Shown here one piece after another: positions 4,896-56,200 of a DNA stretch of 64,000 nt. This DNA comes from Acidobacteriaceae bacterium (GTDB lineage Bacteria; Acidobacteriota; Terriglobia; Terriglobales; Acidobacteriaceae). The position numbers and the translations under genes are program-made. Position 1 is the first letter of the stretch, and each line of letters begins with the position of its first letter. The notes beneath the pieces were generated by a model. The model was not told the origin of the DNA, did not search any database, and was given only the letters and a program-made list of their open reading frames with translations. The stretch spans positions 1 through 64,000 of the forward strand of contig JASHQH010000198.1 in assembly GCA_030037635.1 (NCBI GenBank), in the 5' to 3' direction.

Positions 4896-4978
4896 TTTTT
4901 GAAAGGGCACGCATTTACTCGTGCCGCAAAATTGCGGAATAGAGGCGGACTTTAGCCTCTGAGGGACGGCGTCTCTCA
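4896..4978. repeat. dispersed palindromic repeat, family A, between nuoH and nuoJ
   Basis: This lies in the 257-bp gap 4738-4994, which holds no convincing gene. It shares the layout of copies near 27640, 33876, 36561, 41161, 50171 and 56105: a TTTGAAAGGGCACG arm, a CGTGCCGCAA return arm, a short spacer, then CTTTAGCCTCTGAGGGA. The palindromic halves could fold as RNA or DNA hairpins. It occupies exactly the place where nuoI would be expected. The rest of the gap shows no clear signal. A transposition or recombination role is inferred only from its dispersal. Confidence 0.7.
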
Positions 4979-27564: not shown

Positions 27565-27618
27565 GCGGCGGACGGAGGCTTTTCCCGCGGGGCGCGCGGG
27601 CATGGAGAACCTAGAGCC

Positions 27619-27730
27619 GGTTGCATAAATCCGCTTTGAAGCGCACGACTTCAGTCGTGCCGCAAAAGGCCGCATAAACATTGGGGCTTTAGCCCTGAGA
27701 GATGTTTTTCACTCGCATCAGTATGCAACC
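27619..27730. mobile_element. family A repeat with MITE-like terminal inverted repeats
   Basis: The element is bounded by perfect 9-bp inverted repeats, GGTTGCATA (27619-27627) and TATGCAACC (27722-27730). Inside is the family A core with the palindrome GCACGACTTCAGTCGTGC and GGCTTTAGCCCTGAGAGATG. A 7-bp direct repeat, GAGCCGG, lies at 27614-27620 and 27738-27744 and could be part of the element or a target duplication. There is no coding capacity. Other family A copies lack one or both ends. Confidence 0.5.
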
Positions 27731-27746
27731 AGTCCTGGAGCCGGTC

Positions 27747-33779: not shown

Positions 33780-33780
33780 A

Positions 33781-33926
33781 GCAGGCAACAGGGAACAGGC
33801 AACGGGGAACAGAAAGCCAGGGAGCAAGGGGCCGAGAAACCGGGGGCGCGCTACGGAACAATCGGCGTTGAAGGCTGCTTTGAAAGGGCACGGCTTTCGC
33901 CGCCGAGGGATGCCTTTTCGAGGGCC
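33781..33926. repeat. family B tract followed by a partial family A copy
   Basis: The gap after flgI begins with GCAGGCAACAGGGAACAGGC and further GGGA units (family B). Then a shortened family A element (about 33876-33926) reads TTTGAAAGGGCACGGCTTTC, CGCCGAGGGATGCC. The two families often sit next to each other in this window. No gene is seen. Confidence 0.6.
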
Positions 33927-33977
33927 GTATTGAGGAGAATCGGAAAGGTTCAAGACCAGGGAGTGAGGGAACACGGC

Positions 33978-36525: not shown

Positions 36526-36596
36526 AAACCGGGAACAGGGATTAGGCAGCAGGGAGCAAACGGGCCTTCAGCCCCTGAGGGATGTTTTTGGCAAGC
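36526..36596. repeat. family B tract plus partial family A copy before flgL
   Basis: The 131-bp gap between flgK and flgL starts with ACCGGGAACAGGGATTAGGC (family B) and continues with CTTCAGCCCCTGAGGGATG (the right half of family A, 36567-36585). No promoter or gene is evident in the gap. Confidence 0.6.
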
Positions 36597-41160: not shown

Positions 41161-41250
41161 CGAAAGGGCTTCCCCCGGGGGCTAAAGCCTATCCATTTCT
41201 CGCGGCCCGTTATGGCACGACTGAAGCCGTGCCCTTTCAAGACGACGCAC
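41161..41250. repeat. family A repeat, reversed, between rpsO and pnp
   Basis: On the plus strand it reads CGGGGGCTAAAGCC, spacer, GGCACGACTGAAGCCGTGCC and CTTTCAAG, the inverse of the other copies. The palindromic arm GGCACGACTGAAGCCGTGCC can form a hairpin. It occupies much of the 294-bp rpsO-pnp gap and so will be in any joint transcript; in other bacteria this gap carries RNase III processing hairpins. Confidence 0.65.
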
Positions 41251-49646: not shown

Positions 49647-50132
49647 ATGAACCTGTTCGCAATGATGGACGCTTCGGGCGAGGCCATGGAGGCGGAGCGG
49701 ATGCGCGCCGAAGTCGTGGCCGCCAACATGGCCAATGCGGAAACCACCCGCACCGCCGCTGGAGGGCCGTATCGCCGCCAGGAGGTGGTCTTTGCCGCCG
49801 ACCGCGGCGATCCGGGGTTTCTCGATTCCATGACCGCGGCAACGGGCAGCGCCAGCGCGGCCCAAGCCGGCTTCGCGTTGCCCGGATCTTCGGGCGTGGC
49901 TCCGGGCGTGCATATCGCCCAGGTTGTCGAAGACCCTTCGCCTCCGCTCAAGCGCTACGACCCCGGTCATCCCGACGCGGGACCGGACGGCTATGTCGCC
50001 TATCCCGACATTAACCCGCTTACAGAAATGGTGGACCTGATGGGGGCGACGCGTGCATATGGCCTCAACGGGTCTGCGGTGCAGGCCGAGAAGAGCATGA
50101 TCACCTCCGCGCTGGAAATTGCGAAAAGCTAG
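49647..50132 (+). CDS. flgC: flagellar basal-body rod protein FlgC
   Basis: Rod subunit, 161 residues, with a strong TAAGGAGG site. The rod signature is MRAEVVAANMANAETTRTAA. The C-terminal part DGYVAYPDINPLTEMVDLMG is a recognised FlgC motif, followed by ATRAYGLNGSAVQAEKSMIT. Its place between flgB and fliE is standard. Confidence 0.95.
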   Translation: MNLFAMMDASGEAMEAERMRAEVVAANMANAETTRTAAGGPYRRQEVVFAADRGDPGFLDSMTAATGSASAAQAGFALPGSSGVAPGVHIAQVVEDPSPPLKRYDPGHPDAGPDGYVAYPDINPLTEMVDLMGATRAYGLNGSAVQAEKSMITSALEIAKS

Positions 50133-50150
50133 GGGGCAGGGGACCAGGGC

Positions 50151-50252
50151 CGGTTGCATGAATGCGGTTTTGAAAGGGCACGAGTTCAGTCGTGCCGCAA
50201 ATTGCCGGAAAGAAAAGAGAGGGCTTTAGCCCCTGAGGGATGGTTCCTGAGC
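50151..50252. repeat. family A repeat between flgC and fliE
   Basis: It starts with GGTTGCATGAATGC, like the left end of the element at 27619, then TTTTGAAAGGGCACGAGTTC, CGTGCCGCAAATTGCCGG, and GGGCTTTAGCCCCTGAGGGA. This is the most complete family A core in the window. A clear right-end inverted repeat is lacking. It lies inside a flagellar operon without breaking a gene. Confidence 0.7.
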
Positions 50253-50311
50253 CCGCAGCGGTGTGGATGCATTCAGTTTTTTAAGCCCGGAATGGCAGAG
50301 GATGCGATGAG

Positions 50312-56094: not shown

Positions 56095-56200
56095 GTGCGT
56101 TCCGCTTTGAAAGGGCACGGCTTTCGGCGTGCCAAAGTGCAGCAAGTCAACACGGCTTTAGCCACCGAGGGGCGGGGTTCGCTGATTTCTCAAGCCCCGC
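56095..56200. repeat. family A repeat between fliJ and fliK
   Basis: It reads TCCGCTTTGAAAGGGCACGG, CTTTCGGCGTGCC, spacer, ACGGCTTTAGCCACCGAGGG and later TTTCTCAAGCC. The palindrome is less perfect than in the 50151 copy. The rest of the gap to fliK shows nothing else. Confidence 0.65.

Follow-up and report, generated by a model that had tools for sequence, protein, structure and literature searches.

The dispersed repeat that we term family A is a small and probably mobile element in acidobacteria. It is probably a chimera, in which a core of two hairpins of the type found beside RAYT genes has become enclosed by IS5-type transposon ends; in related genomes other ends appear to take their place. 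The core bridges REPs and MITEs, usually treated as separate classes with separate enzymes, and it accounts for a repeat seen in many Acidobacteriaceae genomes.

Copies in the window, the genome and the phylum

The window, by which we mean the whole stretch of DNA analysed (64,000 nt), lies on contig C275 of a genome of 4.77 Mb in 352 contigs (G000). A preliminary description had proposed a family of dispersed palindromes here, one copy of it MITE-like. That family is real, and both motifs named for it lie far above chance. TTTGAAAGGGCACG occurs with up to two mismatches at five sites in the window, four of them exact, where 0.42 would be expected, and GGCTTTAGCCCCTGAGGGATG with up to three mismatches at five sites, against an expected 0.01.

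A covariance model of the core (R1) finds full copies at 50167, 27633, 41169 (reverse strand), 4896 and 56104, with scores of 57-76 bits. Its training set comprised 83 cores, of which 79 came from other genomes and four from the window (4896, 27633, 50167 and 56104), so that the scores of these four are not independent; the copies at 41169 and 33877 lie outside the training set. Of 83 non-identical cores gathered at first, the alignment omitted four (L070, L146, L162 and one core from L139). The features of the window are as follows, with T1 denoting the first of the end types treated below.

4896 to 4968, + strand: core copy, 62.5 bits; T1 end absent within 8 mismatches
27611 to 27738, + strand: flagged copy, a decayed T1-type miniature element with IS5-like ends around the two-hairpin core, assigned by end matching
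27611 to 27630, + strand: left terminal inverted repeat of the flagged copy, 2 mismatches to CTAGAACTGGTTGCATAAAT; CTAG is the presumed target duplication
27633 to 27704, + strand: core of the flagged copy, covariance model match of 64.5 bits
27643 to 27660, + strand: hairpin 1 of the flagged core, GCACGACT TC AGTCGTGC, from the sequence and the structure on 83 copies
27683 to 27704, + strand: hairpin 2 of the flagged core with its GAGAGATG tail, from the model range and alignment
27719 to 27738, − strand: right terminal inverted repeat of the flagged copy, decayed, 5 mismatches; CTGG instead of the expected CTAG
33877 to 33927, + strand: internally deleted core, hairpin 1 joined to the tail of hairpin 2, 29.2 bits
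36564 to 36584, + strand: half copy, hairpin 2 only, 2 mismatches to a 21-mer; model score 13.9 bits, E 0.23
41169 to 41243, − strand: core copy, 62.8 bits; T1 end absent within 8 mismatches
50144 to 50282, + strand: probable T1-type copy, core 50167-50242, 76 bits; left end with 5 mismatches
56104 to 56174, + strand: core copy, 57.1 bits; T1 end absent within 8 mismatches

In all, the window has five complete copies, a sixth that has lost an internal stretch and a seventh reduced to half. At least seven copies or fragments had been counted earlier; the one at 33877 is the deleted copy, and the one placed at 36561 is a second hairpin only, with an E value of 0.23. In the flagged copy the perfect 9-bp terminal repeat previously noted at 27619 is confirmed (GGTTGCATA at 27619-27627 and TATGCAACC at 27722-27730), but it is the inner part of a repeat that is really 20 bp per side and imperfect, with two mismatches on the left and five on the right. 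The stem of hairpin 2 in this copy is one base under the consensus length. The right end of the 50144 copy has eight mismatches, which is chance level, being matched by ~8% of random 170-base stretches.

All of the window copies are intergenic, as had been claimed, judged by the ORF coordinates and the Pfam names of nearby ORFs (12 of the 18 ORFs scanned gave a match). For example, the 4896 copy lies between an Oxidored_q3 (nuoJ-like) gene and a gene for an NADH dehydrogenase subunit. Degenerate GGGAACAGGGAGCAGGG-type repeats at window positions 33780-33835, 36527-36562 and 50130-50149 adjoin three family A copies, and are also found beside copies outside the window (L010, L016 and L092).

Within the genome there are at least 63 R1 matches with E of 0.01 or better, a lower bound because 150 of 2379 candidates were scored. 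The copies extend across the genome and into its relatives; they are confined neither to the window nor to the species. The density of one copy per 9 kb does not extend to the whole genome, where at least 63 matches in 4.77 Mb correspond to one per 76 kb. With six of these copies, the window is rich in them. The short motif with up to two mismatches lies at 80 places in the genome, compared with 28 for the reversed control.

In a collection with one genome per species, an exact pattern of hairpin 1 plus head occurs on at least 115 contigs, all with titles from Acidobacteriota among the matches listed. Angelobacter, Sulfotelmatobacter and Occallatibacter were checked as Acidobacteriota, and we take the remaining genus names among the 115 titles to belong to the same phylum. 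The hairpin GGGCACGRCTTYAGYCGTGCC is present in 11 of 149 genomes of the phylum, comprising ten of the 15 from the bacterial family to which the window belongs (its own genome included) and one elsewhere; the other 133 Acidobacteriota genomes have none, and the reversed pattern is absent from all 149. When genomes of the same genus were searched with one T1 locus, some gave matches to the whole element (~1478-1613 of the query) and others to the core alone (~1502-1577). A plasmid collection searched with the flagged copy gave one weak match, from Rhodococcus.

The two-hairpin core and its relation to RAYT loci

The core is ~75 nt long, and comprises the head TTTGAAAG, hairpin 1, ~23 nt, hairpin 2 and TGAGGGATG. 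A search expression recognises hairpin 2 in 85 of 127 copies, and copies with GTATC and GTAACA heads are also present in the own genome. The two hairpins are unlike in sequence and length, with TTYA loops mostly in both. The preliminary description had proposed an analysis of RNA structure; on the 83 aligned cores this gives two hairpins, with 94.4% of cells paired. Five of the eight pairs of hairpin 1 are invariant across these cores. Double changes occur in 51 cells, compared with 14.3 on shuffling, and are confined to one pair per hairpin; the number of pairs bearing two-sided changes, two, is not above that in the shuffles (1.9).

When single-stranded DNA is folded, the ends of a fresh T1 copy come together in one stem, with the hairpins as two arms (z = -7.1); the ends of L159, a T3 element, close in the same way (z = -6.3). 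An out-of-register stretch over the T2 element L083 gives z = -3.6 and the bare core at 4896 gives -2.0. The flagged copy (z = -2.6) and the 50150 copy (z = -0.5) fold less well than the fresh T1 copy.

Doublets resembling the core are found at RAYT genes. The own genome has four Y1_Tnp genes. At one of them (L004) R1 finds flanking core-like doublets, although RAYT-locus sequences were absent from the training of the model. We sampled 93 RAYT-like loci (91 distinct), made up of these four, 29 from a search and 60 chosen by hand. R1 matches of at least 24 bits lie within 500 bp of 18 of the 93, while the other 75 lack a doublet at that score and distance. Sixteen of the 18 have doublets to either side of the gene, and at these loci the closest doublets invariably direct their heads outward (16 of 16); more distant doublets in some arrays take either orientation. 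Among 47 control loci lacking RAYTs (130 kb, related genomes) there is one R1 match. Six RAYT-like loci inspected outside the 18 are bracketed by different inverted repeats. The proteins of three bracketed loci (L250, L283 and L208) score above the NCBIfam REP_Tyr_transpos cut-off.

The heads of these doublets are TTTGTATCAGGGC in L269, L278 and L208, TTCGTATCAGGGC in L283, L253, L273 and L196, AGAAAGGGCACG in L250, and GGTAG in, for example, L004 and L271. TTTGTATCAGGGC or AGAAAGGGCACG takes the position that TTTGAAAGGGCACG occupies in family A. TTTGAAAGGGCACG itself, containing the TTTGAAA head of the flagged copy, was found with up to two mismatches at none of the 93 RAYT-like loci. On the evidence of sequence and position, the family A core shares descent with the hairpin doublets that flank some RAYT genes of Acidobacteriaceae.

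Two of these loci have further features. In L004 (G000:C180:1-2237) the RAYT-like gene is flanked by the core-like doublets and also by arrays in which a GGCCGGG(G)TCTGACC-type unit of 18-19 bp is repeated in tandem. L196 (G025:C7:23981-27304) has a tandem pair of Y1_Tnp genes, and between them two core doublets face each other.

Terminal repeats of several kinds around the core

The intact T1 element, as seen in near-identical fresh copies in the genome, runs from CTAG through AG(T/C)TGGTTGCATAAAT, the core, ~20 nt and the inverted repeat to a second CTAG. It measures ~137 bp from CTAG to CTAG and carries no transposase gene, and copies of this length at other genome sites are 96-99% identical. 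Of the seven two-ended T1 copies in the own genome, all have CTAG outside the left end and five have it outside the right; CTAG is possibly part of the end itself. Related genomes were searched for the C217 site without its T1 copy, and no empty site was found, with synteny ending ~70 bp before the insertion.

The same genome contains a ~0.9-kb element with T1 ends (G000:C5:12259-13144). One of its frames matches DUF4096 and another matches both DDE_Tnp_1 and NCBIfam transpos_IS5_3, above the cut-off. The halves of the transposase lie in different frames, so that frameshifting or a broken gene is possible, and the contig terminates just past the right end of the element. This IS5-family element may be inactive. 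A search for a transposase with matching ends had been proposed earlier, with a RAYT as the example; there is indeed a RAYT link for the inner hairpins, but the transposase that shares the ends belongs to the IS5 family. Judged by these matches, the flagged copy belongs to the T1 type and is old and decayed, with IS5-type ends like those of the resident element.

Further ends are found around the same core. Among 118 non-identical copies with two flanks, 37 have inverted repeats scoring at least 11, compared with 3.6 when flanks are swapped between copies; this control is conservative because copies of the same end type can pair. Typing likewise gives 37 of the 118 with both ends of one type, in nine types, and 0.3% with base-shuffled right flanks, which are a lenient control. 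The nine types are provisional, having been drawn by eye from the copies to which they were afterwards applied, and the assignments of L099, L103 and L092 are loose, with 5-6 mismatches per end. There are six two-ended copies of T1, five each of T2, T3, T4, T5 and T8, three of T6, two of T7 and one of T9. Identity between types in the best register is 33-67%, except for T1/T2 (70%) and T3/T8 (78%). These two pairs may be relatives, and we therefore count at least seven kinds of ends.

T2, T3 and T4 copies coexist in one MAG (bog_321, contigs PMGP01). T3 ends bound two transposase elements of 1.5 kb, L395 with one mismatch and L396 with four, and also a core-bearing element, L397. For the L396 transposase the closest match is IS1182 (168.8 bits, below the cut-off of 270), and DUF772 and DDE_Tnp_1 of Pfam score above their cut-offs. 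For T2 there are four elements with two ends and a core (L384, L385, L386 and L389) and two with one end and a core (L387 and L388). The search for an autonomous T2 partner found none; it gave short core-bearing elements in G046 and, in G000, a single end. Four T4 elements have cores (L402, L403, L404 and L406), and in L404 the head is of the GTATC type; the same T4 ends thus surround different core variants. One further T4 end is cut by a contig edge, and the first codons there presumably resemble those of IS5-type transposases. A T5 end with one mismatch (L345) adjoins a transposase ORF that runs off its contig. The L345 protein has a weak resemblance to IS1182/IS5 (69.8 bits against a cut-off of 270) and matches to Pfam DUF772 and DDE_Tnp_1 above their cut-offs, and is therefore a candidate T5 partner only.

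Two end types can be traced to autonomous elements, which belong to different insertion-sequence families (IS5 and IS1182-like), and for a third type, T5, a partner is assigned tentatively. No complete partner emerged for T2 or for T4-T9 in the fragmented MAGs, where absence is weak evidence. At 42 PF01609/PF13340 transposase loci in eight genomes there was no pair of T1-T9 ends, and single ends with 1-4 mismatches were seen at ten.

The position of the core between its ends is nearly constant, in figures that depend on end strings chosen by eye. The distance from the inner edge of the repeat to TTTGAAA is 4-5 nt for T1, T2, T3, T4, T6 and T7 (25 of 26 copies) and 14-16 nt for T5 and T8 (nine of ten copies). 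The exceptions are a T4 copy with 24 nt (L158) and a T8 copy with 5 nt (L097), and the sole T9 copy has 20 nt. End-to-end length is 134-137 nt in 17 of 21 T1-T4 copies.

In a subfamily of the own genome the left ends are CAGCTTGCTGAAAAACTC-like and are followed by TTTGTAACAAGGGCACG-like heads (C119, C99, C258, C8, C190, C265, C157 and C49). At C24:23474 and C50:3837 a T7-like end, GGGTCAGTTTGAA, runs directly into the core, so that its final bases are those of the TTTGAA head. This overlap is possibly microhomology at a fusion.

Origin of the family

We propose that RAYT enzymes carry and probably spread doublets of this kind, in keeping with homology and position at RAYT loci. Insertion-sequence ends would then enclose a doublet, a step that is supported for T1 and T3 only, and a matching DDE transposase could therefore move the doublet in trans. 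For T1 the resident IS5-family transposase could mobilise the ~137-bp MITE in this way. Each end type would represent one fusion, afterwards copied. As the same core lies between other ends in related species, enclosure would have happened repeatedly. The near-constant spacing suggests one of two routes for this: entry of a doublet into a small palindromic precursor where stem and loop meet, or exchange of ends on a common scaffold.

A more far-reaching reading, which we offer tentatively and hold with clearly less confidence than the chimera itself, is that the doublet serves as a common chassis. Unrelated DDE ends would have been placed on it repeatedly at a near-fixed and possibly helical spacing (~5 or ~15 nt), so that it would be spread by both HUH and DDE transposases and its ends would be exchangeable. 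If the near-fixed spacing holds, it provides a handle on the origin of MITEs and on the geometry needed by a very short transposon.

Two conventional explanations each account for part of the data, and we regard both as unlikely. The repeat might be an ordinary IS5-derived MITE family with an inner sequence of its own, its similar cores resulting from spread of the same MITE, through descent or transfer, and its varied ends from decay. The T1 ends, CTAG and the IS5-family partner in the same genome are all consistent with this, as are full T1 copies in further genomes of the genus. However, one MAG has the same core within T2, T3 and T4 ends, inverted repeats that are clearly distinct, and the core adjoins RAYT genes with its heads directed outward. 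The T3 copies with their IS1182-like partner strain the explanation further. We find it equally improbable that this is an ordinary REP/BIME family moved by RAYTs alone, with terminal repeats that arose by chance or through later insertions. The RAYT association and hairpin architecture fit well, and 81 of the 118 copies could not be assigned a type at both ends. Yet inverted ends are about tenfold more frequent than in the swapped-flank controls and near-constant in spacing, and two of the end types match elements that carry transposases.

A structured RNA or terminator maintained at gene ends by its function is a still weaker candidate. Pairing is kept in both hairpins, with compensatory change at one pair in each, but the window has no Rfam match at gathering score, the neighbouring genes are unrelated, and the ~137-bp copies are 96-99% identical elsewhere in the genome. 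Chance palindromes, for which a GC content of 0.63 and nothing further speaks, are refuted by the motif counts against expectation, the genome matches and the reversed control at zero in 149 genomes, and their probability is negligible.

The preferred reading, a RAYT-type doublet within transposon ends, places family A close to several known systems. Like REPINs or REP doublets with their RAYTs, as these are described in the parts of PMC3116915 and PMC3733652 consulted, it consists of short extragenic palindrome doublets; related doublets with outward heads bracket the RAYT gene at 16 loci, where the exact TTTGAAA head was seen at none of the 93 sampled, and its intergenic copy number is high (at least 63 in the genome), as for REPs. 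Unlike REPINs, its hairpins differ from each other and are not two inverted copies of one REP, the head of the flagged copy is TTTGAAA and not GTAG, and many copies are enclosed by transposon ends. The GTAG super-family of REPs differs likewise, in that the family A head is TTTGAAAG, without GTAG; GGTAG occurs at some related doublets of RAYT loci. T1 resembles IS5-family MITEs in being ~137 bp long and noncoding, with terminal repeats and CTAG as in the resident IS5-family element. In contrast to such MITEs, its interior is no insertion-sequence remnant; the doublet there also occurs at RAYT loci and in miniature elements that have other ends.

Combinations of this general kind have precedents. 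In Pseudomonas, degenerated GTAG units are joined to unrelated stem-loops, a precedent for the fusion of REPs to unrelated stem-loops, and acidobacterial tyrosine transposases flanked by inverted repeats are known as TIRYT genes and TIRtrons (PMC3733652, in the sections available to us). By the text description in those sections, enclosing DDE-transposon ends and exchange of end types are not reported for the TIRYT/TIRtron systems. Class 3 TnpA enzymes, from Acidobacteria and others, are HUH enzymes with high-copy flanking structures, like the RAYTs here, with ~600 associated structures in Solibacter; a point of difference is their foot, CnGA (PMC6006769, from the portion available). A RAYT-type core within transposon ends was not found described in the literature searched, which left subscription papers mostly outside its scope.

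A second dispersed palindrome (~GGGGTCCCCAGCGACAGGTCTTCGTCGCTGGGGTGG) lies within the hairpin 1 loop of the own-genome copies C311:25456, C192:2926 and C332:597 and of L006, with a variant in L032. By eye, it is flanked on both sides by CTT(G)-like bases. Its position may be a weak hint of insertion into the loop. Palindromes of the same type also stand alone, at L149, L150, L170 and L371.
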